A DNA stretch of 64,000 bases from an archaeon (lineage in GTDB: Archaea; Thermoproteota; Nitrososphaeria; Nitrososphaerales; Gagatemarchaeaceae): assembly GCA_021827865.1 (NCBI GenBank), contig JAKAUC010000013.1:186001-250000 (forward strand), given 5' to 3'. This document shows positions 1 to 16,796 of this stretch, piece after piece. The notes under the pieces were generated by a model. That model was not told the DNA's origin. It ran no database searches and saw nothing but the letters and a program-made list of their open reading frames with translations. The position numbers and the translations under genes are program-made. Every line of letters starts with the position of its first letter. The stretch's first letter is position 1.

Positions 1-1185
1 CCGCTGGGAGGCGGAGGCTGGACACCGAAATGGATAGCGTCCCAGCTCATCGGGCCCTACGCCGTCCCGAAGGCCTACGCCACCGCGAAGGCTGTCCTGA
101 CCAACAAAGTGAACCTCGGCCCCTACCGGGGCGCCGGGAGGCCGGAGGCCGCATTCTTCATGGAGAAGATGATGGACAGGGTCGCAGACGAGACCGGCCT
201 GGACGCGGCCGAGGTGAGGTTGAGGAACGCCACCCTGCGCAAGACGACGTCCCCCCTGGGCATGGAAGCACCGCCGTCGAAGAAGTTCTTCATGGAGGCG
301 CTGAGGGCTTTCCACTACTCGAGCCGGAAGAAGAAGGGGAAGCTGGGCCTGTCGTTCTTCATGCTGATCCCCGCCGCCTACGGAGGAGAGTCGGCGAAGC
401 TGGCGGTGCGCGGCGGCAGGGTCAAGGTGTGGATGGGGGGGAGCTCTCACGGTCAGAGGCACGACGTCTTCGCCAAGACCCTGATCAGCGGCGAGCTCGG
501 GATTCCACAGGATGTGATAGACTTCCAGCACGCGGACACCGCCGCGATCTCCGGGGGCGTCGGGAGCTGGGGGAGCAGGACCGCTCTCCTCGGCGGCGGA
601 GCCTTGGTCGAAGCAAGCAGGATGCTGAAGGCGAAGGCGAAGAAAGAGCTTGGGAAGCGCTACTCCCCCGCCCGCCTACTTGATGGTGAATACGAGGCCG
701 AGGCATTCTTCAAGCCGAAGGGCCTGCTCAACTCCCTCGGCGCCAACCTGGCGACCGCACGCATCACCAAGGACGGGAGCGCGGTCGTAGACGAGGTCCT
801 GTCGTTCTACGACGTGGGAAAGGTGCTGAACCCGGTCATGCTGGAGAGCCAGGTCACCGGAGGGGTCGCCCAGGGGATTGGGGAAGTGATGTACGAGCAG
901 GCCCTTTACAGCGAAGAAGGCCAGCTCCTGACCGCCTCCATAGCCGACGCCGGGGTCATTCACTCCACCGAGATGCCGAAGTCCGTGGTGATGACCGGGG
1001 CCCACAGGTCCGACCTCCCCCACGGGGCGAAGGGGGTCGGGGAGAGCCCCACCATAGGGGTCCCCCCTGCTGCTACGCGCGCCCTGGAGGTCCTCCTGGG
1101 ACGGAGGTTCACGACCCTCCCCATCGAGCCGGAGAAGCTCTGGGCGGTCAGGCTGACCGGGGCCGAGGAGAGGCGATCGAGATGA
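1..1185 (+). CDS. Molybdenum hydroxylase large subunit (CoxL/xanthine dehydrogenase family), 5'-truncated
   Basis: The reading frame is open from base 1, so the gene starts outside the window and only about the last 394 residues are seen. It matches the molybdopterin-binding subunit of the xanthine dehydrogenase/CO dehydrogenase family. The active-site loop reads PYRGAGR at about bases 121-141. That resembles the AYRGAGR loop of form II enzymes and lacks the Cys-containing AYxCSFR loop of true form I CO dehydrogenase. Further conserved stretches are GGVGSWGSR and, near the C-terminus, GAKGVGESPT, which carries the expected catalytic Glu. The gene overlaps the next one as ATGA, and the order L-M-S points to one enzyme. 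The substrate is unknown; an aldehyde or N-heterocycle is as likely as CO. Confidence 0.9.
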   Translation, partial: PLGGGGWTPKWIASQLIGPYAVPKAYATAKAVLTNKVNLGPYRGAGRPEAAFFMEKMMDRVADETGLDAAEVRLRNATLRKTTSPLGMEAPPSKKFFMEALRAFHYSSRKKKGKLGLSFFMLIPAAYGGESAKLAVRGGRVKVWMGGSSHGQRHDVFAKTLISGELGIPQDVIDFQHADTAAISGGVGSWGSRTALLGGGALVEASRMLKAKAKKELGKRYSPARLLDGEYEAEAFFKPKGLLNSLGANLATARITKDGSAVVDEVLSFYDVGKVLNPVMLESQVTGGVAQGIGEVMYEQALYSEEGQLLTASIADAGVIHSTEMPKSVVMTGAHRSDLPHGAKGVGESPTIGVPPAATRALEVLLGRRFTTLPIEPEKLWAVRLTGAEERRSR

Positions 1186-2060
1186 TTCCACCCAGGTTCG
1201 AGTACGCCGCACCGAAGAGCTTGCAGGAGGCAGTCGGCCTCCTGAACGGGAGGGGCGGGGACGCGAAGGTCCTCGCGGGCGGGCAGAGCATGATCCCCCT
1301 TCTCAAGCTGCGGCTGGCGGCTCCCGCGCTCCTCGTGGACATCAACCGGATCCCGGGGTTGGATTACCTCAGGGAGTCGGACGGTTTCCTCAGGATAGGT
1401 TCGCTGACGAGGGTCGCTGCCCTGGGCGGGTCGCGCCTGCTGCAGAAGAAGTACGGGGCGATCCATGACGCTTCGCTGGCCATCGCAGACCCCCTGGTCC
1501 GCAATCTCGGGACTGTCGGAGGCAACATCTCGCACGGCGACCCGTCGAACGACCTCCCCGCGGTAGCCCTGGCCATGGGAGCGCAGTTCGCGGCCACCGG
1601 GGCGTCTGGGGAGAGGTCGATACGGGCAGAAGACTTCTTCGTGGACACCTTCGCCACGGCTCTGGCCCACGACGAGATACTCACCGAGGTCCGGGTACCG
1701 GTCCCGCCCCCGCGCAGCGGTGGGGCCTACCTGAAGGTCGAGCAGAAGGTCGCCGACTTTGCGACAGCCGGTGTGGCGGTCCAGATCACCATGGGGAGGG
1801 GGTCAGAGTGCGAGAGGGTGGGCATAGGCATCACCGGCGCCGGCCCCACGGCCATCAAGGCGAAGAAGGCGGAGGAGGCTATGCTGGGGAAGAAGCCCAC
1901 CGACGCCAGCGCGGCTGCGGAGGCCGCTGAGCTGGCCGCAGGCGCGTCGTCGCCGACGTCGGACATCAGAGGGACCGTGGATTACAAGCGGGCGCTGATC
2001 AGGCTCCTCGTGACCAGAGGGCTGGCGAGGGCCAACGAGCGTGCGAGGAGGGGAGCCTAG
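1182..2060 (+). CDS. Molybdenum hydroxylase FAD-binding (medium, CoxM-like) subunit
   Basis: This 292-residue protein has the FAD-binding PCMH fold of CoxM/XdhB subunits. Two flavin-binding motifs are visible: AGGQSMIPLLK near residues 31-41 and TVGGNISHGDPSNDLP around residues 110-125. The C-terminal part matches the CO dehydrogenase flavoprotein C-terminal domain. It would pass electrons from the Fe-S subunit to FAD and then to an acceptor. The ATG overlaps the stop of the large subunit, and the stop directly abuts the ATG of the small subunit, so the three are translationally coupled. The size is normal for the family. Confidence 0.93.
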   Translation: MIPPRFEYAAPKSLQEAVGLLNGRGGDAKVLAGGQSMIPLLKLRLAAPALLVDINRIPGLDYLRESDGFLRIGSLTRVAALGGSRLLQKKYGAIHDASLAIADPLVRNLGTVGGNISHGDPSNDLPAVALAMGAQFAATGASGERSIRAEDFFVDTFATALAHDEILTEVRVPVPPPRSGGAYLKVEQKVADFATAGVAVQITMGRGSECERVGIGITGAGPTAIKAKKAEEAMLGKKPTDASAAAEAAELAAGASSPTSDIRGTVDYKRALIRLLVTRGLARANERARRGA

Positions 2061-4200: not shown

Positions 4201-4848
4201 GTGAAGCCGCACGAAGACCACAGGGCCCACGCCGGGAAGGGGCTGGCCGTCAGGGTCGTCACTGTCAGCTCCAGCAGGTTCGCCAAGAAGGAGGCGGGGG
4301 AGGGGTATACAGACGAGGCGGGGGACGCGGCCGTAGCCGAGGCGCTGAGGGCGGGGCACAGGGTGAACCGAAGGGCGCTGATCTCGGACGACGCCGCCAT
4401 GCTCCGGAGGGAGGTGGAAGGGTTCCTGGCAGGGGGGGAGGACGCCCTCCTGTTCACGGGTGGGACCGGGGTCTCCCCCAGGGACGTCACCATAGAGACG
4501 ATCAGGCCGTACTTCGAGAAGGAGCTGGACGGCTTCGGGGAGCTCCTGCGGAGGCTGAGCTATGACGAGATAGGGGCCGCCGGGGTCCTGTCCAGGGCGG
4601 CGGCCGGGGTCGCCGGGGGGAAGCTCATAGTGTGCATGCCAGGGTCGCCAGGGGCCGTAAGGACATTCCTCGGAGCCCTCGCTGGTGAGTTCGCCCACGT
4701 CGTGTACATAGCCGGGGGCCAGGGACCCCGAGGCTATGGCGCCGCTCGCCGTGAAGGGCGACCTGACCGGGTCCGCCAAGGGGATGGCCGCGGACCAGGC
4801 CGCCAGGGACGCCGCCCGGAAGCGCGGCGCTCAGTACACGGGGACTGA
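4201..4848 (+). CDS. MoaB/MogA family molybdenum cofactor biosynthesis protein
   Basis: The protein has the MoaB/MogA fold that adenylylates molybdopterin before molybdate insertion. Visible motifs are LLFTGGTGVSPRDVT (MPT-binding loop), a central SYDEIGAAGVLSRA stretch and VCMPGSPGAVRTFL near residue 145. GTG at 4201 is the only plausible start after an in-frame stop at 4171. Homology appears to end near HVVYIAGG (about residue 178). The remaining 35 or so residues are arginine-rich and look like run-on. A frameshift or an unusual tail is possible. It overlaps the 3' end of the convergent MoeB-like gene by 18 bp. Confidence 0.82.
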   Translation: MKPHEDHRAHAGKGLAVRVVTVSSSRFAKKEAGEGYTDEAGDAAVAEALRAGHRVNRRALISDDAAMLRREVEGFLAGGEDALLFTGGTGVSPRDVTIETIRPYFEKELDGFGELLRRLSYDEIGAAGVLSRAAAGVAGGKLIVCMPGSPGAVRTFLGALAGEFAHVVYIAGGQGPRGYGAARREGRPDRVRQGDGRGPGRQGRRPEARRSVHGD

Positions 4849-5979
4849 CGGGTCCACTTCCTCGGCCCAGGCCCTGATCCCGCCCGCCAGGCTCCTCGCC
4901 TTCCTGAACCCGAGGGACTTCAGCAGGCCGACCGCCGCCGCGCTCCTCACCCCCACGTGGCAGTAGACCACCAGCTCTTCCTCCCTGTCTAGCTCCCCGG
5001 CCCTCCGCGCCAGCTCTCCGATGGGTATGTGCTTCGAGCCTGCTATGCTGCACAGCTGGTGCTCGTACGGCTCCCGGACGTCGAGGAGGTAGACCTTCTC
5101 CCCGGCGTCGAGCAAGCGCTTGAGCTCGGAGGGCCCCAGCTCCTCCTGCCTCCCCCCCTCTCGCTTCAGTCCGCAGAACTCGTCGTAGTCGATGAGCTCC
5201 CTGATCCTCGGCGCCGTCGAGCAGACCGGACACTCGGGGTCCTTGCGCACCCTGACCTCTTCGAAGGTCATCTCCGACCCGTTGAAGAGCAGCAGCCTTC
5301 CGACCAGAGCCTTCCCGTTGCCCAGGAGGATGTTCAGCGCCTGGGCGGCCTGGACGGTCCCCATTAGCCCCGGGAGCACCCCCATCACCCCCGACTCGGC
5401 GCAGTCCTGGACCGCCCCGGGAGGGGGCGGGACCGGGAACAGGCACCGGTAGCACGGCCCCGACTCAGCAGCGAAGACCGATGACTGGCCGTCGAACCTG
5501 TAAACGCTGGCGTAGACGTCGGGCTTCCGCGCGATGACGCAGGCGTCGTTGACGAGATAGCGCGTGGGGAAGTTGTCCGTGCAGTCCAGGACGACGTCGT
5601 AGCCTCGGATGATGTCCAGCGCGTTCGACCTGTCCAGCCTGGCCCTGTGGGGGACCACGGACACGTTGGGGTTGGTCTCGTGCAGCCTCTCCAGCGCGAC
5701 GTCGACCTTCAGCCTCCCGGCGTCCCCCTCGGCGTAGAGGGGCTGCCTGTGGATGTTGCTCACCTCCACCCTGTCGTGGTCGACGATCCCCACCTCACCC
5801 ACCCCGGCTGCGGCCAGGTAAGTCGAGGCAGGAACGCCCAGCCCCCCGACCCCCACCACCAGCGCCCTCGAGGACTTTAGCCTGCGCTGGCCCTCGATGC
5901 CGACCTCGGGGAGGACCAGCTGCCTGCTGTACCTCTCCAGCTCCTTCTTGGAGAGAGCCTCGGATCCGTCAGTGGTCAA
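4831..5979 (-). CDS. ThiF/MoeB-type E1-like adenylyltransferase with C-terminal rhodanese domain
   Basis: This 382-residue, two-domain protein resembles MOCS3/MoeZ. Residues 1-250 form the E1-like adenylation domain, with the nucleotide loop VGVGGLGVPAS, DHDRVEVSNIHRQ, and two zinc CxxC pairs (CYRC and CPVC). Residues 285-382 form a rhodanese domain with VYCHVGVRS as the catalytic Cys loop. Such proteins activate the C-terminal Gly-Gly of MoaD/ThiS/SAMP proteins and transfer sulfur. A MoaD-like protein ending in GG is encoded at 21317. Clustering with xdhC and moaB fits molybdenum cofactor synthesis. A role in tRNA thiolation is an alternative. Confidence 0.9.
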   Translation of the reverse strand: MTTDGSEALSKKELERYSRQLVLPEVGIEGQRRLKSSRALVVGVGGLGVPASTYLAAAGVGEVGIVDHDRVEVSNIHRQPLYAEGDAGRLKVDVALERLHETNPNVSVVPHRARLDRSNALDIIRGYDVVLDCTDNFPTRYLVNDACVIARKPDVYASVYRFDGQSSVFAAESGPCYRCLFPVPPPPGAVQDCAESGVMGVLPGLMGTVQAAQALNILLGNGKALVGRLLLFNGSEMTFEEVRVRKDPECPVCSTAPRIRELIDYDEFCGLKREGGRQEELGPSELKRLLDAGEKVYLLDVREPYEHQLCSIAGSKHIPIGELARRAGELDREEELVVYCHVGVRSAAAVGLLKSLGFRKARSLAGGIRAWAEEVDPSVPVY

Positions 5980-7920: not shown

Positions 7921-9975
7921 TCAGCCTGCGGCGAGCAGGATGTAGATCAGCACGAAGATGAGTGCGGCCATGATGTAGATGATGTAGAGGCCCAGTTTCC
8001 CAGACATCACCTTCTTGCTCGCATAGGCGGATAGCCCCAGGGCCCACTTGGCGAGGACGTCGTAGAACTTCTTGAACACGTCAAGCACCGCAAGGTCCAC
8101 CACATATTCCTCGGGGGAACTGACAACCAGCCGCTGCGCAGAGCCCACCTGGACCACGCTCTCCTTGGTCCTGAAGAGGAACCTCAGCATAATCCTGATC
8201 GGTGTGCTGTAGCCGAAGGAGTTGTACATGGCGGCTGAGTCGTCCGCCGGGGCCGCTCCCGCGAACCAGCCGGGGGTCCTCCTCACGCGGAAACCGAACC
8301 GAGGCGCGCGCGCTCGGACGGCGCCGGCGACGGTCAGGGTGACAAGCAGGATGGAGAAGAAAGCCAGGGCGGTGAAGGTGGGTGAGAAGCCGCCGAACGG
8401 GCTGCCTGAGAGAATCACGAACGGGGCGGGGACCCCCAGCAGCCCTGTGACGAACAGCCCATAGGGGCTCCCCCCCAGCATCCGTGATGCCGCCTGGGAG
8501 GCGAGGTAGAATACGCCAGGCGCCCCCGCCCCGACCGCGACGACGAGCGCTGCGAAGTAGGCGAGGCTCCCGCCGATGTACGCCCCTCCTTTTTCGCCCG
8601 GCCCGGCGGTCCTCCTCGGCCAGAGCGTTCCGAACCCATAGACTTTGGTCATGGCGACCACCATGATGCCTGCGGCCAGGGCGACCACCGCCCCCACCAG
8701 GGCCCCCAGGATCTGGCTGGTCAAGTCTCCGAACCTGAACGACTGGAACAGCGTCTCTAGGATCATCCACTCCGAGACGAATCCGGCGAGCGGGGGGACG
8801 GCCGCGAGCGAAAGGACGGTAAAGATCCCTAGGGAGCTCAGCCACCTCCCCCCAGCCGAGGGGATCGGGTGGGCGCTGCTCAGGTCGAATGTCCCCCTGA
8901 GCTTGCTCATCCACCCGTTCAACAGGAAGAGGGACGCCTTCGAGATGGAGTGAGAGAAAGCGTGGAACAGGGCTGCCACCAGAGCGAAGTCGGCCAGGAG
9001 GGTGAGGTTGTAGTGGGCGGCGATGAGATACGCCCCGATGGCGACAACTATCATCCCGTTGTTCTCTATGGTGCTGTACGCGGGGAGGCCCTTCGAGTGC
9101 TCGGAGACCGAGCTGAACAGGGCCCCCAGGAGGGCCGACACCCCACCGATGGTCAGGGCGAGCCAGCCCCACCACAGCTGATACCCCCCCAGGTGCGAGA
9201 CGACGTCGATGACGCCGTAGACACCCATGAGCGTGAGCGTCGAGGAGAGCAGGGCTGAGGCGTTCGAAGGGGCGCTCGAATGAGCGATCGGAAGCCATTC
9301 GTTCATGTGGAACGGGGCCAGCCCCATCTTCAGGCCGAAGCCCAGGAGGGCGGTGACGAAGATCCAGGGTCCCAGAGGCGTGACAATCCTGGCCGCGGCG
9401 GGGCCCATGAAGCTGAAGGTGCCGGCGGCGGAGAAGAGCCCGGCGAAGGAGAGCATGATGAGCACGCTGCTCCCCTCCCCGAAGGCCAGGAAGACGTAGG
9501 CCGCGTTCCTGACCCTGTCCTTGTCCCCCTTCCCTTCGAGGATCATGAAGAAGGAAGCAATGGTCATAGATTCCCAGCCGATGAGGAAAGTGAACGCGTC
9601 GCCGCTCACCAGCACGATGACCATGGACATGATGGTGAGAAGCATGAGCGAAGAGAGGGACCTGGGATAGTCGTCATCGTACCTCACCGAGTACAGGCAC
9701 GTCCCGAGCCAGACCAGCGAAGAGATCAGGAGGAAGTAGGCGTTGAGCGGGGAGACCTGGAGCTGGGCATAGCTCGCGGAGCTCACCAGCCAGAGGTCGA
9801 CGGCGACCGTCTTGCCCGACGTCAGGACGATGAGCGAGAGCACCGCGCCCAGGGCTGAACCCACGCCCCCCAGCATGTACGCGGCCTTCTTGGAGGACAG
9901 TCCTAGCACGAAACCTGCGCCGAGCGCCGCCAGGGTCCCGAAGAGGAGGCCTGATATCAGATATGCCGGGATCAT
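7921..9975 (-). CDS. Ehr-like complex, NuoL/HyfB-type proton-pumping membrane subunit
   Basis: This 684-residue integral membrane protein of the NuoL/MrpA/HyfB family has roughly 15 hydrophobic segments. The conserved antiporter Glu lies in GWESMTIASFFM, and the lysine-bearing region follows around AHSSAPSNASALLSSTLTLMG. The C-terminal part (after residue 540) has the extended helices typical of HyfB/NuoL. Start ATG at 9975 is chosen because upstream in-frame codons are arginine-rich shadow of the next gene and ATG overlaps that gene's stop. It is the last gene of the six-gene operon and would form the distal proton- or sodium-translocating arm. Confidence 0.92.
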   Translation of the reverse strand: MIPAYLISGLLFGTLAALGAGFVLGLSSKKAAYMLGGVGSALGAVLSLIVLTSGKTVAVDLWLVSSASYAQLQVSPLNAYFLLISSLVWLGTCLYSVRYDDDYPRSLSSLMLLTIMSMVIVLVSGDAFTFLIGWESMTIASFFMILEGKGDKDRVRNAAYVFLAFGEGSSVLIMLSFAGLFSAAGTFSFMGPAAARIVTPLGPWIFVTALLGFGLKMGLAPFHMNEWLPIAHSSAPSNASALLSSTLTLMGVYGVIDVVSHLGGYQLWWGWLALTIGGVSALLGALFSSVSEHSKGLPAYSTIENNGMIVVAIGAYLIAAHYNLTLLADFALVAALFHAFSHSISKASLFLLNGWMSKLRGTFDLSSAHPIPSAGGRWLSSLGIFTVLSLAAVPPLAGFVSEWMILETLFQSFRFGDLTSQILGALVGAVVALAAGIMVVAMTKVYGFGTLWPRRTAGPGEKGGAYIGGSLAYFAALVVAVGAGAPGVFYLASQAASRMLGGSPYGLFVTGLLGVPAPFVILSGSPFGGFSPTFTALAFFSILLVTLTVAGAVRARAPRFGFRVRRTPGWFAGAAPADDSAAMYNSFGYSTPIRIMLRFLFRTKESVVQVGSAQRLVVSSPEEYVVDLAVLDVFKKFYDVLAKWALGLSAYASKKVMSGKLGLYIIYIMAALIFVLIYILLAAG

Positions 9976-10715
9976 CGCCTCGCCCCCTCCTCCTTCAACC
10001 GGCCCGCGGCCAGCAGCAGCCCCTCCAGGATCTGAACAGGCGAAGGCGGACAACCGGGGACGACGACGTCTACGGGGATCGCGTCGCAGACGGGAGAGAC
10101 GAAGCCTTCCGCGCCCTTGAAGATTCCTCCGCTCACGGCGCAGGCGCCGACGGAGAGGACCAGCTTCGGCTCCGGCATGCTCTCGAAGGTCCTCTTGAGG
10201 ACGTCCACCATCGCCGGGTTGAGGGCGCCTACGACGATCAGGGCGTCCGCGTGCTTGGGAGAGTTCGTGAAGGCGATGCCGAGCCTCGAGACGTCGTAGT
10301 ACGGGTTCGAGAGGTTCAGCACCTCGAGGTTGCAGGCGTTGCACGACCCGACGTCGATCATCATGACGTGGAGCGACCGCCCGAAGATCTGTCGGGCTCC
10401 GGCGGCGCGGTTCCCTAGGAAGCTGGCCTGCAGGGCCCCTGTGCGACCTCCGGGCCCGTCCTCGAAGGAGAAACCAGCAGAGGAGCAGAGGCGGCAGTAG
10501 ACGCAGCGCCCCAGGTCCACCTTCTTGTCCGCTGAATCAATGGCGCCTGTTGGGCATCCCTTCTCTCCGGCGTGCCAGTCCGCGGCGTCGGTTGGCCTCG
10601 GCGGGAGCGAGCGCACCGGGACCTCTTCGGACGTCGGCTGAGACTTCGGATAGGATGTGGTGAGTATCCCCTTCTTCAGCCCGCGGATGACCCAGATCTT
10701 TGGCATGTTCCACAT
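9972..10715 (-). CDS. Ehr-like complex, NuoB/HycG-type Fe-S subunit fused to a one-cluster ferredoxin
   Basis: This 247-residue protein has two parts. Residues 45-80 are a shortened ferredoxin with C54 (GCPTGAI) and C71, C74 and C77 (CVYCRLC). Those are exactly the ligands of one [4Fe-4S] cluster of a two-cluster ferredoxin. Residues 110-247 are the NuoB/hydrogenase small-subunit fold, with C125, C128, C192 and C222 (GSCNAC, GAC, PGCP). The CxxC spacing resembles group 4 hydrogenases; NuoB has a CC pair. It would carry electrons to or from the large-subunit interface. It follows directly on the large-subunit stop. ATG at 10715 is used; ATG at 10704 is possible. Confidence 0.92.
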   Translation of the reverse strand: MWNMPKIWVIRGLKKGILTTSYPKSQPTSEEVPVRSLPPRPTDAADWHAGEKGCPTGAIDSADKKVDLGRCVYCRLCSSAGFSFEDGPGGRTGALQASFLGNRAAGARQIFGRSLHVMMIDVGSCNACNLEVLNLSNPYYDVSRLGIAFTNSPKHADALIVVGALNPAMVDVLKRTFESMPEPKLVLSVGACAVSGGIFKGAEGFVSPVCDAIPVDVVVPGCPPSPVQILEGLLLAAGRLKEEGARR

Positions 10716-12071
10716 TCACCTGTCTGAGTCCGCGAACGAGAGACCGAAGCTTTCGAAGGCGAATTGGAAGTCTGTGAAGACCGTGCCTTCGAGGCTCCGC
10801 GCGAATGGGAGCCAGTTCACCAGGGAAGGCGGCCGCACGTGCAGGTTCCTCACCCTCCCTCCGCCGTCGAGCTGGACCACCTGTATCAGGTCCCCGCTGG
10901 GGCTTTCCACCCTGCAGAAGGAGAACCCCGACCCGAGGACGTCGGCTCGCCGTCTATCGGTGCCGCTCTTCGTTCCGTCAGAAGGCATCCCGTCCAACAG
11001 CTCCCTCAGCGCGATGGTACTGGACTCGACTTCCCTCACCCTCACCATCGTCCTCGCCATGGTGTCCTCTCCATCATCGGTCTCCAGGTTGACGTAGATG
11101 TCGTCGTAGGGTTCCAAGGGGAAGGTCAGCCTGTCGTCCCACTGCACGCCCGACCCTCTGGCCGATGGGCCGACCGCGCCGAGGCCGAGGGCGTCCTTCT
11201 TCGTGAGCTTCGCGGTGCCCTGGAGCCTGTCGAGGAATATGCGCGAAGAAAGGAAGTACTGCACGATCTCCGAGAACTCCCTGGCTACCAGCCTGACCTC
11301 AGTCGTCAGGGCGCTCCGCTCGTCCTTGGGCAGGGCACGGCGCACTCCGCCGATCGAATTGATCCCGAAGAGGTACCTGTGCCCGAAGTGCCTGGAGTTC
11401 AATCTCAGCACCCTCTCCCGAAGCGCGTGCGTCTGGGTCGCCGCGACGTTCTGGGACGCCGCCTCCGCCAGGCGGCCGAAGGCGTACAGGTGGTTGTAGA
11501 TCCTTTCGAGCTCCAGGGCAACGGCCCTGGTCCACCTGGCCTCCGACGGGACCTCCAGTCCGAGAGAATCCTCCACCGCCGTCGCGAAACAGGTGGAGTA
11601 GGCTGCGGAGAAGTTGCCCGCCGACCTCTCGACGAAGAGGAGCGCATCCTCCGGAGCGCGCCCCAGGACCGCCCGCTCCACGCCGCGCTTCTTGAAATTG
11701 ACCCGGGGGACCACCTTGAGCACCCTCTCGCCATAGGTCATGAGGCCGAAGGCGCCCGCCTCGGGGACGCCCCAGCTGACCGGGCCGTAGGGGAACTCGA
11801 ACACGCCATAGCCCTCGACCCGGCCCCCGGCCTCGAGCGCCAGCGGGGACCCCGGCTCCGCGTCGCCGCCTCTGAGCAGTGCGCCGAACTCTTCGCCAGG
11901 GGCTGGCGGGAGCTCGCTGACGATTGTCCTGTTGGTCTCAGTATCGGAGATCAGCGCGTAGTTGAGGCCCCCGGCCTGGAAGACCGACGATAGCTGCATC
12001 TTCTCTCCGAGGCTCTCCAAGTTGTGCCTCTCTACGCGGCCGCCCCCCAGGATGCCGGGCCCGCCGCTCAA
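10716..12071 (-). CDS. Ehr-like complex, NuoD/HycE-type large subunit lacking Ni-Fe cysteines
   Basis: This 451-residue protein is homologous to NuoC/D and to group 4 [NiFe]-hydrogenase large subunits. Support comes from EFPYGPVSWGVPEAGAFGL, ALELERIYNHLYAFG and the C-terminal LPFARSLEGTVFTDFQFAFES. The four Ni-Fe ligands are gone. The L1 motif ERxCGxC reads ERSAGNF at residues 148-154, and the C-terminal DPCxxC reads GLSFAD at residues 443-448. The protein therefore cannot hold a standard Ni-Fe site. It resembles complex I and the Ehr class in this respect. TTG start overlaps the preceding stop as TTGA. An active-site quinone- or other-substrate role is inferred, not shown. Confidence 0.9.
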   Translation of the reverse strand: MSGGPGILGGGRVERHNLESLGEKMQLSSVFQAGGLNYALISDTETNRTIVSELPPAPGEEFGALLRGGDAEPGSPLALEAGGRVEGYGVFEFPYGPVSWGVPEAGAFGLMTYGERVLKVVPRVNFKKRGVERAVLGRAPEDALLFVERSAGNFSAAYSTCFATAVEDSLGLEVPSEARWTRAVALELERIYNHLYAFGRLAEAASQNVAATQTHALRERVLRLNSRHFGHRYLFGINSIGGVRRALPKDERSALTTEVRLVAREFSEIVQYFLSSRIFLDRLQGTAKLTKKDALGLGAVGPSARGSGVQWDDRLTFPLEPYDDIYVNLETDDGEDTMARTMVRVREVESSTIALRELLDGMPSDGTKSGTDRRRADVLGSGFSFCRVESPSGDLIQVVQLDGGGRVRNLHVRPPSLVNWLPFARSLEGTVFTDFQFAFESFGLSFADSDR

Positions 12072-13510
12072 GGCACCATCCCCTGGGCCGCCTGCAGAAG
12101 CAGTGGGCTCATGTACACGCCTATCACGAGGGCCACCGCCAGATTGGCCAGTGGGATCGCGACCGAGACCCAGTGTTCACTCTGGGGCGCGGCACGCGGG
12201 GCCGGCCCGGAGCCCATCCCCTCTCCCTGCTGCCCGGAGCTGCTCTGGCCGAACACCATCTTCACTGACTGCCTGTTCAGGCCGATGAACCCGTAGACGT
12301 AGACGGCTGCGAGCAGCAGGACGAGGGCGACGTTTCCCGTGCTCAGCGCCATGGCCAGTATCATGAATTCTCCCACGAAGACGCCGAAGGGCGGGGCGCC
12401 TGTCACGGCGAGGCAGGAGAGCGCGAAGAGATAGCCGCTGTACTTCAGCCTCCTCGCCACCCCCTGGACCTCGGCCATGCTCTTGCTTTCGTAGGCGACA
12501 AGTATGTTGCCAGATTCGTAGAAGGCTGAGGACTTCGCGAAGGCGTGGGCGACTATCTGGACGGCCGCGCCTACGACCCCGATGCCTCCGAGGGCGAAGC
12601 CGACCAGTATGATGCCCATGTTCTCCATGCTGGAGTAGGCGAGCATTCTCTTGTAGTTCCGCTGATGTCCCATTATGATGGCGGCGAGCAGAGCCGTGAA
12701 TACCCCAAACCCGATCAGAAGGTTCTGCATGGCCCCGAATGAAGCCAGCCCCTGCAGTAGGTTGAACGTCCTGACGAGGGCGTAGATCGACGTCGGAAGG
12801 AGGATGCCCGAGAACATGGCGCTTACCGGCGAGGGAGCTTCGCTGTGGGCGTCAGGGAGCCAGGCGTGCATGGGGGCGACGCCTGCCTTGGTCCCGTAGC
12901 CAACGAGGGCGAAGCCGACGGCAAGCGGCATGAGCAGCCCGGCGCGGATGGGAGACCCCATGAGGTTGGAGATCACGAGGGTGCCCTGGGAGTAGTAGAC
13001 GAAGACGACGGAAAGTAGCGAAGCCACGAGGCCCGCGGAGACGATGAGCGTGTAGCGCCAGGCCGCTTCTACGCTTGTCCTCTCGCGTTCCAGGGCGACG
13101 AGGAGGGCGCTGGTCACGGTCGTTGCCTCAATCGCGATCCACACGAAGCCGAGGTCGTTCACGGTGACGGCCAGGAGCATGGTGAAGGCGAAGAGGTCGA
13201 GCAGGGAGTAGTACCACCTGAAACGTATGAGGGGCTTGTTGATCCGCCTCACGTAGAACCACGAATAAGCCACGGAGGTGAAGAACACCGAAGAGATGGT
13301 GATCGCCATTATCCGCGTGAGGCCGTCTGAATAGAACAGGCCAAACGCCCCCGATGCCCCGGAGGCGAGCAGGAACAGAGAGACCAGGACGGCCGCTGCC
13401 GAGGAGGCCAGGGAAGCAGCGACCTCCACCCCGTCCCTGGGGACTAGCGAGACGGCCGCTCCGACGGCGGGGGCGGCAAGCAGCACGACAAAGATCAGGC
13501 TCGGGTCCAC
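12068..13510 (-). CDS. Ehr-like complex, NuoN/HyfF-type antiporter-like membrane subunit
   Basis: This 480-residue protein has about 14 hydrophobic segments and belongs to the NuoM/NuoN/HyfF family. Diagnostic stretches are FVWIAIEATTVTSALLV (conserved Glu in TM5) and GTKAGVAPMHAWLPDAHSEAPSPVSAMFSG (TM7 and TM8 with the key Lys). The latter begins with KAGVAPMHAWLPDAHSEAPS, a signature of the family. Start is GTG at 13510, seven bases after the preceding gene. Together with the subunit at 7921 this gives the complex two antiporter-like modules. Confidence 0.93.
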   Translation of the reverse strand: MDPSLIFVVLLAAPAVGAAVSLVPRDGVEVAASLASSAAAVLVSLFLLASGASGAFGLFYSDGLTRIMAITISSVFFTSVAYSWFYVRRINKPLIRFRWYYSLLDLFAFTMLLAVTVNDLGFVWIAIEATTVTSALLVALERERTSVEAAWRYTLIVSAGLVASLLSVVFVYYSQGTLVISNLMGSPIRAGLLMPLAVGFALVGYGTKAGVAPMHAWLPDAHSEAPSPVSAMFSGILLPTSIYALVRTFNLLQGLASFGAMQNLLIGFGVFTALLAAIIMGHQRNYKRMLAYSSMENMGIILVGFALGGIGVVGAAVQIVAHAFAKSSAFYESGNILVAYESKSMAEVQGVARRLKYSGYLFALSCLAVTGAPPFGVFVGEFMILAMALSTGNVALVLLLAAVYVYGFIGLNRQSVKMVFGQSSSGQQGEGMGSGPAPRAAPQSEHWVSVAIPLANLAVALVIGVYMSPLLLQAAQGMVP

Positions 13511-13516
13511 CAGATA

Positions 13517-14176
13517 TCACCCGGTGAGCTGCTCCAACTCTGGTTCCTCCAGCGTTCTCAGCACATCGCGGGTGGCGGACAGGATCACGCCCACCAGGAT
13601 GACCCCCAGGACGTCCAAGACCACCGCGAACTCGATCAGCAGTGGTATGGTCGGGGCGATGAGGGCTCCCGCATAGAGCACGGCGTTCTCCTCCTCAAGA
13701 AACCCGGTCATCTGGGTCAGGGCGTTCTTTCGAGTGGCTATGAGGAGGAAGCTGAGGAGCACCAGGACGAAGGGGACGGAAGCGGACGGGTTGGAAAGGT
13801 CGGGCAATAGAGCGGTCTTGAACAGCGCGTATCCTCCTATCACCACGATGATCCCGACTATCACCAGCGAAGGCACCCGCTGGCCGGGCCCGCTCTCCCT
13901 CAGGCTGTGCTTGAAGCGGCGCACCTGGTACAGCATCACAGCGGGGATGAGGAGCCCGCGTATCCCTGCGGTTATCGCTGCCAGGTAGAGGAGGTCCGCG
14001 TCTCCCGATCTCAGGAAGAGGACAACGAAGAGGATGGCGAGGAGCAGTGACTGGGCGGCCACCCCCCGTATCGCAGGGTCCACGAAGGTCTGGCTCTGAA
14101 GGTATAGGGCAGTCAGGAGCACCAGTATCCCGAGGAGCCCGGAGAGCTCGCCAAGGAGCGGCTGAGGGAGGATCAA
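13517..14176 (-). CDS. Ehr-like complex, HyfE-type small membrane subunit
   Basis: This 219-residue hydrophobic protein is of the HyfE type, which contains a NuoK-like portion. About seven membrane spans are seen, with Glu residues inside the hydrophobic region of FLEEENAVLYAGALIAP, as in NuoK/MrpC-related subunits. Start TTG at 14176 overlaps the stop of the preceding gene as TTGA. The frame remains open further upstream, but that part is arginine-rich and antisense to nothing useful. It sits between the NuoH-like and NuoN-like genes, as in hyf operons. Confidence 0.85.
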   Translation of the reverse strand: MILPQPLLGELSGLLGILVLLTALYLQSQTFVDPAIRGVAAQSLLLAILFVVLFLRSGDADLLYLAAITAGIRGLLIPAVMLYQVRRFKHSLRESGPGQRVPSLVIVGIIVVIGGYALFKTALLPDLSNPSASVPFVLVLLSFLLIATRKNALTQMTGFLEEENAVLYAGALIAPTIPLLIEFAVVLDVLGVILVGVILSATRDVLRTLEEPELEQLTG

Positions 14177-15144
14177 GGCGGCGGCCCGCCTCCGACCAGG
14201 AAGAACGCGATGACCGCGAGGAGCCCGAGGCTGAACGAGATAGTGAGGAAGTCGAGAATCTTGAAGAGTCGGAGCTTGGCGAAGGTCTCTTCTGTTATCA
14301 CTATCGCAGCGGCGAGGCCGAGCAGTTTGAGGACCAACGTCCCGACGGAGTAAAGCGCCCCCTGGACCGACACCGCTGTGGACATCCACCATGGGAGGAG
14401 GAAGACGTTGAGGAAAACCGACATGAGCATGAACTGCTTCATGTAGCCTCCCCACATGGACACCGCCAGGAGCCTTCCCGAATGCTCCATCACCTTGGCG
14501 TCGTCGAGCATCCCCAGCTCCATCAGCCCTGAGCTCTCCACCGGGAGGCGTCCGGTCTCCACAAGCAGGAGCATGAAGAAAGACGACAAGACGAGGATGT
14601 GGGTGGCCGAGAGGTACCAGGCCGTCGATGTGGCGAGGAGGTTGTTGGTCACGTAGGGGCTGTTTGTCCCGGTTATCAGGGCGACACCGAAGAAGACCAT
14701 TATCAGCGTAGGCTCAGCCAGGGCGGAGAAAGAGGCGCTCCTGCTCGCCCCGAGGGCTGTGTAGTTCGTGTGGGCATCAAGCGCCGCGATTATCCCGACG
14801 ACCCCGGCCAGGCCAAACATCAGTGCCCCGCCTAGCAGGTCGAGGAGGATCCCGTAGGGGAGCGGGTAGGGAGTCACGATTGGGATGACCAGCGAGATTA
14901 CGATGTATCCTGTGAACGAAAGGAAGGGCGCCAGCACGAAGAAGCCCGAAGCCCTTTCGGGGACGACAGTCTCCTTCCTGAAGAGCTTGGCAAGATCGTA
15001 GTAAGGCTGAAGGATGGGCGGCCCTCGCTTGGACTCTAGGAGCGCCTTCAGGCGGTTGATGACCCCGGCTATGAACGGCGAGAGGACAAGGACCGTCCCC
15101 ACCTGGATGGCGTTGATGGCCTGGAGCGCGAGCTGGTCAGACAA
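14173..15144 (-). CDS. Ehr-like complex, NuoH/HycD-type membrane anchor subunit
   Basis: This 323-residue protein has eight or so membrane spans. NuoH/HycD signatures are GVINRLKALLESKRGPPILQPYYDLAKLFRKE near the N-terminus (split here as ESKRGPPILQPYYDLAK) and RLPVESSGLMELGMLDDAK in the sixth loop. NuoH is the subunit that joins the membrane arm to the Fe-S modules and forms the quinone cavity in complex I. Start TTG at 15144 is the first gene of the operon. Its mRNA would carry a leader of about 135 nt if the TATA box at 15302 is used. Confidence 0.93.
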   Translation of the reverse strand: MSDQLALQAINAIQVGTVLVLSPFIAGVINRLKALLESKRGPPILQPYYDLAKLFRKETVVPERASGFFVLAPFLSFTGYIVISLVIPIVTPYPLPYGILLDLLGGALMFGLAGVVGIIAALDAHTNYTALGASRSASFSALAEPTLIMVFFGVALITGTNSPYVTNNLLATSTAWYLSATHILVLSSFFMLLLVETGRLPVESSGLMELGMLDDAKVMEHSGRLLAVSMWGGYMKQFMLMSVFLNVFLLPWWMSTAVSVQGALYSVGTLVLKLLGLAAAIVITEETFAKLRLFKILDFLTISFSLGLLAVIAFFLVGGGPPP

Positions 15145-15301: not shown

Positions 15302-15310
15302 TAATTAAAT
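15302..15310 (-). promoter_or_regulatory. Putative promoter of the Ehr-like operon
   Basis: TAATTAAAT (minus strand ATTTAATTA) is the best TATA-like element upstream of the operon and lies directly beside the palindrome at 15310. The predicted transcription start is near 15280, leaving a leader of about 135 nt. A weaker element, GTAAATT, at about 15274-15280 is an alternative. Confidence 0.45.
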
Positions 15311-15325
15311 GTAACTGCTGTTACA
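15310..15325. promoter_or_regulatory. Palindromic operator copy 1, TGTAAC-N4-GTTACA
   Basis: TGTAAC TGCT GTTACA is a perfect inverted repeat, extended by one more pair to ATGTAAC and GTTACAT. It abuts the TATA-like element of the Ehr-like operon and runs into the stop codon of the ChrB-domain gene. The identical arms recur at 15960-15975, which makes chance unlikely. Confidence 0.7.
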
Positions 15326-15883
15326 TCAGGGCTCTGGCTGCTTGTTTATCCCCCGGGGCTGCGCCTTCTCGGCGAAGCTCGCCAGGGCCCTCTTGCACCT
15401 CGACAGCATCGTCTCCAGTTTGGACGAGTCCTTGGCGCGGCCATATCCCTTCTCTCGCACGCTCTTGTACCACCTTTCCAGGGACTCCAGCGTCTGCTCA
15501 AGCTCGTCGGTCTCCTCGTAGGTGATCTTCTTGTTTACCAGGTTCTCGCTTATCTCGTCCAGGAACTCCTGGCACTCTTCGTAGATCTCTTCGAACTGCT
15601 TCCGTCGGTCCTCCTGGAACATCCTGGAGAGCACGCCCGAGTCCTGGCCGTCCAAGGCGTCGGCGCTCATCACCAAGACGGTCCCGTGCTCCTTGAATTC
15701 CGACCTGAACTGGCCGACCTCCTTCCTTGCCTGCGGGGTGTTGGGCAATATGCAGAGGGACACCGGCGGGTAGAGGGCGCCGAGCTTCTTGAGGTTCCTC
15801 CAGGCTCTGACTCGGAGCTTTGAAGGCTCGTTCGGGAGGTCGTAGGCCACCACGATCCACCTGTCGGCGGGCTTCCCGTTCAT
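15326..15883 (-). CDS. ChrB N-terminal-domain protein (possible regulator)
   Basis: This 185-residue protein opens with WIVVAYDLPNEPSKLRVRAW and continues LKKLGALYPPVSLCILPNT, the pattern of the ChrB N-terminal domain (a Cas2-like ferredoxin fold also seen in PaaX C-terminal regions). Residues 70-185 are helical and charged, with EEIYEECQEFLDEI. There is no obvious helix-turn-helix. ChrB proteins regulate chromate resistance in bacteria, but no chromate transporter is present here. ATG at 15883 fits a TATA-like TTAAAT centred 26 nt upstream (15907-15912). The gene is bracketed by two identical palindromes, suggesting a regulatory role for it or its neighbours. Confidence 0.72.
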   Translation of the reverse strand: MNGKPADRWIVVAYDLPNEPSKLRVRAWRNLKKLGALYPPVSLCILPNTPQARKEVGQFRSEFKEHGTVLVMSADALDGQDSGVLSRMFQEDRRKQFEEIYEECQEFLDEISENLVNKKITYEETDELEQTLESLERWYKSVREKGYGRAKDSSKLETMLSRCKRALASFAEKAQPRGINKQPEP

Positions 15884-15959: not shown

Positions 15960-15975
15960 TGTAACCGCAGTTACA
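15960..15975. promoter_or_regulatory. Palindromic operator copy 2, TGTAAC-N4-GTTACA
   Basis: TGTAAC CGCA GTTACA has arms identical to copy 1 at 15310 but a different spacer. It lies between the TATA box and the start codon of the gene at 15986, the usual place for an archaeal repressor site. Confidence 0.75.
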
Positions 15976-15985
15976 GTCTTCGGGT

Positions 15986-16303
15986 TTGCGTCACAAGGGA
16001 AAAGGCAAGGCAGCCGCGGAAGTCGTGGAATTCTCCGTAGAAATCGAGGACTACGAGCGCTTCGTGCGGCTCTCGACTTCCCGCCATCTCGGCAGGGACG
16101 ACGCGCTGAGGGTAGCCCTCACTCAGGGCATCGACAGGTACTGGCCCATGCAGCTCGCCTTCATGGAGAAAGACTACGCTGAGCTGAAGAAGAGCTTCGG
16201 AGAATACAGCAGAGACAACGAGGCTCTGAGGAGGATATACTCGCAGAACAACGAGCTCAGGAGACTGCTGGAGCCGGCGAAGCATCCTGGGAGTGGGAGG
16301 TAA
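15986..16303 (+). CDS. Small ribbon-helix-helix-like protein with C-terminal helix (paralogue 1)
   Basis: This 105-residue protein is not a recognised family member. After a basic N-terminus (MRHKGKGK), residues 12-50 read as a strand (VVEFSVEIE) and two helices, a ribbon-helix-helix-like pattern. Residues 60-98 form a charged coiled coil ending in NNELRRLLEP. The same layout recurs in the next gene, including a DNxAL then LRRL pattern near the C-terminus, so the two look like paralogues. The TTG start is set by the TATA box and operator just upstream. A DNA-binding role is inferred from the fold guess and position. Confidence 0.65.
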   Translation: MRHKGKGKAAAEVVEFSVEIEDYERFVRLSTSRHLGRDDALRVALTQGIDRYWPMQLAFMEKDYAELKKSFGEYSRDNEALRRIYSQNNELRRLLEPAKHPGSGR

Positions 16304-16307
16304 GCGA

Positions 16308-16796
16308 GTGCCCCGCTTTTTCGGCGCCGCCCGGGGGAGGCAGCCTGGCGAGGAGGTCGACGCTCACTCTATCCTCGAGGCGCGCACCTCGGGGGGGTCG
16401 GTCAGGATCACGGCGAGGTTCGAAGGCAGGACATGGCAGCAGGCGGTCGGCTTCGCCCGACGGATGGGGTACTCCGACATGAAGGAGCTGCTCCCGATGC
16501 TCTTCTCGTATGGAGTCTCGGACGAAGAAGGCGCAGACATCGAGGGGCGCCGCCCGGAACTGTACGCCCTGGGTCGCAAATACGCGGCGATGAAGTTTGA
16601 GGCGTACCGGTTGTTCAATGACAACCGGGCGCTGTCGATGGCCCTGTCTACTTTGCTCCCGGAGAACAGGAGGCTCAGGAGGCTCGCTGCCGAGAGAGGG
16701 CTCCTCCCCCAGACACGCGAAGAGTGGGACGAATGGGCGCAGGAAGACGTCGACAGGTTCTACCAGAAGTACGTCTACAGCCTCAAGGGAGGCTAG
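16308..16796 (+). CDS. Ribbon-helix-helix-like protein (paralogue 2)
   Basis: This 162-residue protein has unknown function. Residues 30-65 (SVRITARFEGRTWQQAVGFA) look like a strand followed by helices, as in the preceding protein. Residues 95-130 contain DNRALSMALSTLLPENRRLR, parallel to the DNEALRRIYSQNNELRRL stretch of the first. An acidic, aromatic C-terminal tail (EEWDEWAQEDVDRFYQKYV) is extra. GTG at 16308 is chosen because GGAGGT lies six bases before it; GTG at 16293 is also in frame. The five-base gap to the previous gene indicates one operon. Confidence 0.65.
   Translation: MPRFFGAARGRQPGEEVDAHSILEARTSGGSVRITARFEGRTWQQAVGFARRMGYSDMKELLPMLFSYGVSDEEGADIEGRRPELYALGRKYAAMKFEAYRLFNDNRALSMALSTLLPENRRLRRLAAERGLLPQTREEWDEWAQEDVDRFYQKYVYSLKGG

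Follow-up and report, generated by a model that had tools for sequence, protein, structure and literature searches.

What a membrane complex built like a group 4 [NiFe] hydrogenase may do once every ligand of its Ni-Fe site is gone is the question raised by a six-gene operon of an archaeon of the Thermoproteota from soil or mine water. The operon lies in a stretch of 64,000 nucleotides (the window; positions 186,001 to 250,000 of contig JAKAUC010000013.1, assembly GCA_021827865.1), whose contig of 527 kb is part of a 1.94 Mb metagenome-assembled genome (MAG; completeness 99%, contamination 7.5%), which is close to the Nitrososphaerota MAGs FK2_bin.84 and MAS4_bin.35. Here, the genome of the window is called G000, while compared genomes, compared loci and contigs carry G-, L- and C-numbers, respectively. 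Such cysteine-less relatives of hydrogenases, called Ehr complexes, are common among soil microbes with an aerobic life, and the reaction they carry out has been a question ever since their discovery. They trace back to Coppi 2005 and Marreiros 2013, as cited in PMC4378227, and have been reported in ammonia-oxidising archaea (AOA) and Thaumarchaeota (PMC10432482). Our best guess, to which we give about even chances as a whole, is that the operon encodes a class II Ehr complex derived from a group 4 hydrogenase that no longer makes or uses H2, and that would act as a ferredoxin-fed ion pump within a hydrogen fluoride (HF)/fluoride stress regulon repressed by a ChrB protein.

The six subunit genes (positions 7921-15144, minus strand) encode NuoH-, HyfE-, HyfF/NuoN-, NuoD/HycE-, NuoB- and HyfB/NuoL-like proteins, here named EhrH, EhrE, EhrF, EhrL, EhrS and EhrB. 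Pfam and NCBIfam agree in this with an earlier reading of the DNA made without database searches (the sequence-only reading), which had assigned the same identities at the same place. Its description of the six genes as overlapping holds for three of the five junctions (4-base overlaps at H/E, F/L and S/B), while L and S abut and E and F are separated by a gap of 6 bases. The order H-E-F-L-S-B is kept in every relative of sufficient length (L009-L019), with EhrL identities of 60-91%. Known Ehr complexes share this NuoH/HyfE/HyfF/HycE/HycG/HyfB set of six subunits and the lack of the CxxC Ni-Fe motifs.

Mapped against HycE/HyfG of E. coli, the Ni-Fe ligand columns of EhrL hold A, F, S and D, in line with the earlier proposal that all four cysteines are replaced. 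Counted with the initiator Met, these residues are Ala151, Phe154, Ser444 and Asp447. Columns 1, 2 and 4 are identical in all 11 window-type EhrL proteins and column 3 is Ser, Thr or Asn. An alignment of 11 orthologues, each taken from an independent assembly, shows ERSAGNFS and ADSDR-stop without variation, which excludes sequencing error as the cause of the missing cysteines. In hydrogenases, a C-terminal tail is removed by a maturation protease; EhrL ends at ADSDR without such a tail, and its stop coincides with the end of the mature hydrogenases. The lack of hydrogenase maturation genes, which had been noted for the window, extends to the genome, as HypD had no match in the whole of G000 (99% complete), nor in 36 other genomes of the same family that were searched, and the only PF00374 match in G000 is EhrL itself. 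The solved large subunits closest to EhrL are those of MBH (6cfw; 140 bits) and FHL-1 (HycE, 7z0s; 116 bits), from which it differs by the absence of Ni-Fe ligands and of maturation, while Glu103, aligned with E21 of MbhL, is retained. The quinone pair H38/Y87 of complex I (Nqo4 numbering) is not kept (P and G instead), and the archaeal NuoD of G000 likewise lacks Y87. The predicted structure of EhrL (pLDDT 46) was too poor for use.

In a maximum likelihood tree of 63 large subunits (support given as value pairs), the cysteine-less Ehr proteins form one clade (100/100) that includes EhrL and is sister to HycE/HyfG (100/99). The sequence-only reading had considered that EhrL might fall inside the NuoD proteins of standard complex I, but the complex I/MbsL clade (100/100), which holds both NuoD proteins of G000, is apart from Ehr, and these two further NuoD genes belong to separate complex I loci. 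Together, the ligand loss, the lack of HypD and the tree make it almost certain that the operon encodes an Ehr complex, as had been suggested. The Ehr clade divides into class I (99/94), consisting of AOA-like and other Nitrososphaeria and most plasmid-borne bacterial operons, and class II (100/99), which contains the window-type archaea (100/99), a family (f35; 100/100) that we take to be Sulfolobaceae, and bacterial loci from Burkholderia, Caballeronia, Mycobacterium and Alicyclobacillus. Within class II, the branches of several bacterial members are long, and the tree does not settle whether the bacteria form one group there. While the Ehr large subunits of the compared Nitrososphaeraceae-like and AOA-like genomes are mostly class I, with the motifs ERISGDE and SLDLSYSGNDL and the order B-H-E-F-L-S, the window has the class II motifs ERSAGNF and SFGLSFADSDR, the order H-E-F-L-S-B and a half-ferredoxin fused to EhrS. 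Window-type Ehr was present in only 2 of 398 genomes drawn evenly from the phylum. One relative, G004, carries three class II Ehr operons (contigs C33, C68 and C69; L009, L012 and L013), each with its own ChrB_N gene; the large-subunit match on C69 has one internal stop.

The remaining parts of the machinery are conserved. EhrS has a hydrogenase-type CxxC..C..C motif for the proximal [4Fe-4S] cluster and an N-terminal half-ferredoxin with one four-cysteine site, a feature that had been overlooked, and all eight iron-sulfur (FeS) cysteines are invariant in 11 archaeal class II sequences. Alignment with HyfB, HyfF and HycC showed that both antiporter-like subunits keep the glutamate of transmembrane helix 5, the lysine of helix 7 and the later His/Lys/Glu positions common to these proteins (E128, K208, H322, K326 and E381 in EhrF; E135, K216, H342, K346 and E402 in EhrB), and EhrH has the acidic and basic E-channel residues common to HyfC and HycD. 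Judged by these residues, electron transfer to the EhrL/EhrS interface and ion pumping look intact.

A first indication of the physiological context comes from the bacterial class II loci. A fluoride riboswitch (RF01734, Rfam) was present in all five of those compared (L041, L043, L046, L057 and L111) and in none of ten bacterial class I loci (Fisher p=3e-4), and their neighbours include genes for crcB, DUF190, pyrophosphatase, enolase, CLC, MutS, dynamin, Usp and MFS proteins. 'Formate hydrogenlyase' has been named as a common target of fluoride riboswitches (PMC11139923). However, the large subunits of all five riboswitch-linked loci lack all four Ni-Fe cysteines, and these loci therefore are Ehr and not hydrogenases. 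Such operons share with the window the clade, the subunit fusion and, where complete, the gene order H-E-F-L-S-B, whereas in the window a palindromic operator and a gene for ChrB_N stand in place of the riboswitch. On an Alicyclobacillus plasmid, a lone Ehr large-subunit gene (L041:8767-10263) stands under its own fluoride riboswitch, with no other Ehr genes within 9 kb.

The sequence-only reading missed this kinship, as well as the regulatory elements that lie just outside its coordinates. In the 1.94 Mb of G000, the perfect palindrome TGTAAC-N4-GTTACA has two copies, where about 0.03 exact sites are expected, and no further ones were found at up to one mismatch. The two sites flank the chrB gene and abut TATA-like boxes with a spacing conserved in orthologous loci, and the site at the Ehr operon is in the same place in L009, L010, L012, L013, L017, L019 and L100. 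Among 61 relatives, ChrB_N was found in 9 of 9 genomes with window-type Ehr and in 4 of the 52 others (p=4e-8), and palindromes in 10 of 10 genomes with ChrB_N compared to 6 of 21 without it (p=2.5e-4), both values uncorrected for kinship. Bacterial chrB genes of the short form are also preceded by an exact palindrome in the Burkholderia island L057 and in Agrobacterium (L168), in the latter beside a riboswitch-CLC-CrcB operon, while weaker versions are present beside PAP2 and mcr-5 genes with a bacterial ChrB of the short form. These co-occurrences give good grounds, short of proof, to infer that the ChrB_N protein binds the palindrome. A fold search with ChrB returned PaaX as the best, marginal match (E=1.5e-3, TM below 0.5). 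ChrB of Ochrobactrum tritici, a chromate-responsive regulator (PMC3817168), is of the same ChrB_N family and is likewise encoded beside the genes it controls, with an inverted repeat at the promoter, but the window protein consists of the 180-aa N-terminal domain only, its operator sequence differs, and window-type targets are Ehr and fluoride-type genes as opposed to the chromate exporter ChrA. On a Cupriavidus gilardii plasmid, a chrB gene (L166:3059-3654) heads an mcr-5.1 gene and has a weak upstream palindrome (2 mismatches); the ChrB signal may be relevant to mcr-5 regulation.

In G000, the confirmed palindrome targets are limited to chrB, the Ehr operon and a gene pair for proteins of 105 and 167 aa; homologues of the 105-aa protein head the fluoride-riboswitch operon in G007 and G023, and a homologue of the 167-aa protein is in the same operons. 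In relatives, the palindrome precedes, besides Ehr, genes for enolase (L015, L094), a MutS2-MutS1 pair (L094, L106), dynamin (L013, L094, L101), Usp (L105, L098), NUDIX (L015), two MFS families and a calcineurin-type phosphoesterase with chrB. The archaeal MutS2-MutS1 pair (L094, L106) is 46/45% identical to the pair of the Alicyclobacillus fluoride island, and the palindrome-linked MFS and enolase proteins are 54% and 43% identical to their homologues of bacterial fluoride islands. Moreover, the two types of control are exchanged between siblings. A ribbon-helix-helix (RHH)-p167-PLD-X233-MFS operon has the palindrome in L100 and a riboswitch, divergent from riboswitch-crcB, in G023 (L163). 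In G007 (L096), a related operon, RHH-p162-MFS, lies beside chrB and Ehr genes and has a riboswitch-like element of 24.3 bits; inspection of the alignment by eye showed its loop AGAAGC to be the complement of GCUUCU at the position of the pseudoknot. Other riboswitch settings in siblings are an MFS gene in G023 (L159) and a MutS pair next to riboswitch-crcB in G035 (L164). Hence, the regulatory element at the Ehr operon is common to homologues of fluoride-island genes and is swapped for riboswitches, some below the curated score, in siblings. In our view, the Ehr operon likely belongs to a fluoride/HF (acid-anion) stress regulon.

Based on these results, we propose a theoretical scheme. Electrons from a soluble donor of low potential, for which reduced ferredoxin is the most likely candidate, would enter the single [4Fe-4S] cluster of the EhrS half-ferredoxin, pass to the proximal [4Fe-4S] cluster of EhrS, and move on to an acceptor at the EhrL/EhrS interface, at the former Ni-Fe position. 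The drop in energy would be coupled via EhrH to the expulsion of protons or sodium by the antiporter subunits EhrF and EhrB. A ChrB-family repressor acting on the TGTAACN4GTTACA operators would keep the operon off, and its derepression under fluoride stress would allow the export of protons brought in by HF and sustain the membrane energy needed for anion export and ATP synthesis. Of this, the gene content, the loss of the ligands, the conservation of clusters and pump residues, the phylogeny and the operator with the targets it shares can be read from the sequences, while the donor, the acceptor, the ion, the role of ChrB as the binding protein and that of fluoride as the signal are inferred. 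A more tentative extension, which we consider less likely than not, is that class II Ehr serves fluoride/HF stress specifically, as a redox-powered pump that replaces or powers the fluoride defence in archaea lacking CrcB, with ChrB as a protein sensor of fluoride (or HF stress) in the place of the riboswitch.

Several observations weigh against this scheme. No fluoride riboswitch was found in G000, nor in the window at a permissive threshold (the sole extra Rfam match, mir-207, is due to chance), no CrcB was found in G000, and the CLC protein of G000, considered as a CLC-F candidate, has the canonical GREGPT motif and is not recognisable as such. With 24-28 bits, the riboswitch matches of G007, G023-RHH and G023-MFS fall short of the curated score of 34, and because three of the class II loci come from closely related Burkholderiaceae, the association in 5 of 5 loci rests on about three lineages. 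In addition, ChrB is known from chromate regulation and also stands beside mcr-5 and PAP2 genes, so the signal could differ, and redox coupling is not universal in the Ehr family, as described below for two small subunits. No significant tendency of class II Ehr and CrcB to exclude each other was seen (p=0.19).

The first of the alternatives, which we consider rather unlikely, is that Ehr has a housekeeping role and conserves energy in ordinary metabolism as a ferredoxin:quinone-type oxidoreductase, that the signal for ChrB and the palindrome is chromate, metals or some other stress, and that the likeness to fluoride islands reflects no more than shared stress genes. The chromate response of the Ochrobactrum ChrB, the missing CrcB and the occurrence of class I Ehr operons without fluoride signals are consistent with it. 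On the other hand, the palindrome targets match the genes of the fluoride islands one by one and some sibling operons are under fluoride riboswitches, and the H38/Y87 quinone pair of complex I is not conserved.

A non-redox role, as an antiporter of cations and protons like Mrp or as a transporter coupled to fluoride/HF, with an EhrL/EhrS arm that would be only structural or regulatory, appears improbable, even though some fluoride riboswitches of archaea control Na+/H+ antiporters. In other archaea of the order (loci L158, L160, L161 and L162), the riboswitch precedes a gene for a 368-aa Na+/H+ antiporter-like membrane protein, followed by Usp in three of the four. Likewise in its favour, the Ehr small subunits of Mycobacterium branderi (L046:10093-10887, under a fluoride riboswitch) and Allomeiothermus silvanus (L044:10083-10955) lack every proximal-cluster cysteine, and the usual passage of electrons to the large subunit is therefore impossible there. 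However, the invariance of the eight EhrS cysteines in the archaeal class II sequences argues for retained electron transfer.

A sulfane reductase of the MBS/Mbx type, reducing polysulfide or disulfide at the proximal cluster, would also lack the Ni-Fe site and H38/Y87 and use ferredoxin (PMC7684303). We nevertheless rejected it as very improbable, since neither the cluster motif nor the tree fits: in MBS, the motif is shortened so that the cluster has three Cys, two cysteines of the large subunit are retained and the glutamate E21 is missing (PMC7684303), whereas the window has no large-subunit ligand cysteine, keeps the E21 equivalent and has the hydrogenase-type CxxC, and MbsL groups with complex I. 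Finally, a true [NiFe] group 4 hydrogenase, or a fragment of complex I with its other subunits elsewhere, has hardly any standing despite the overall likeness of the subunits, and both were rejected: the former on the missing ligands, maturation tail and HypD and on EhrL as the sole PF00374 match, the latter on the fully supported separate clade and the two complex I loci of G000.

Ehr in Thaumarchaeota (PMC10432482) is already published, as is the control of formate hydrogenlyase genes by fluoride riboswitches; in the limited library of literature searched, neither the equation of such hydrogenlyases with class II Ehr nor the regulon of the ChrB operator was found. The operator shared with genes that other microbes induce against fluoride is a first testable clue to the role of Ehr, a question that could be addressed directly by induction and deletion phenotypes if one of the two Ehr classes is a fluoride/HF-stress complex. 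The frequent label 'formate hydrogenlyase' is wrong for the five riboswitch-linked loci tested, and in that case archaea would have a protein-based fluoride regulon around ChrB, so far known as a chromate regulator.

Table 1. Features of the Ehr operon and its regulatory surroundings in the window, and fluoride riboswitches at bacterial class II loci.
Locus	Feature	Position	Strand	Evidence or remark
Window	EhrB, HyfB/NuoL-like antiporter subunit	7921..9975	-	PF00361 E=6e-31
Window	EhrS, NuoB/HycG-like small subunit fused to N-terminal half-ferredoxin	9972..10715	-	PF01058 E=3e-26
Window	EhrL, NuoD/HycE-like large subunit	10716..12071	-	PF00346 E=1e-35, PF00374 E=5e-8
Window	EhrF, antiporter-like subunit, HyfF/NuoN family	12068..13510	-	PF00361 E=8e-49
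Window	EhrE, HyfE-like small membrane subunit, TTG start overlapping EhrH stop	13517..14176	-	NF008556 (hydrogenase 4 membrane subunit) E=4e-14
Window	EhrH, NuoH/HyfC-like membrane anchor subunit	14173..15144	-	PF00146 E=9e-30
Window	TATA-like box TTTAATTA after operator	15302..15309	-	spacing conserved in orthologous loci
Window	Operator palindrome TGTAACTGCTGTTACA (plus strand), directly upstream of TATA-like TTTAATTA of Ehr operon	15310..15325	.	one of two genome sites
Window	ChrB_N protein, candidate trans-acting repressor; open frame extends to 15958	15326..15883	-	PF20229 E=3e-29
Window	Second operator palindrome TGTAACCGCAGTTACA, between chrB and divergent 105-aa gene	15960..15975	.	
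Window	105-aa small protein, resembles ribbon-helix-helix proteins	15986..16303	+	no Pfam match
Window	167-aa protein of unknown family, cotranscribed with 105-aa gene	16293..16796	+	
L043	RF01734 directly upstream of Ehr operon	5194-5264		Rfam
L057	RF01734 directly upstream of Ehr operon	5336-5406		Rfam
L111	RF01734 directly upstream of Ehr operon	5584-5654		Rfam
L046	RF01734 upstream of NUDIX gene heading Ehr operon	4845-4918		Rfam
L041	RF01734 upstream of lone EhrL	8561-8621		Rfam

Four genomes of the same genus in which HypD was not found (G003, G001, G016 and G021; loci L030, L032, L033 and L035, respectively) encode large subunits of group 4 that have all four Ni-Fe cysteines as well as a C-terminal tail. 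The complex I loci of G000, on contigs C9 and C13, are near-identical and have the same neighbours, pointing to either a duplication or two mixed strains (contamination 7.5%). Both of their NuoB genes contain LAGLIDADG inteins (L007:9816-11477 and L008:11034-12788, both on the minus strand), inserted at two differing sites, each at an FeS-ligand cysteine (after ETACC and after MGAC). At the left end of the window (109-2060), a molybdopterin-binding large subunit with the motif PYRGAGR and an FAD subunit represent a CO-dehydrogenase-like molybdenum hydroxylase.

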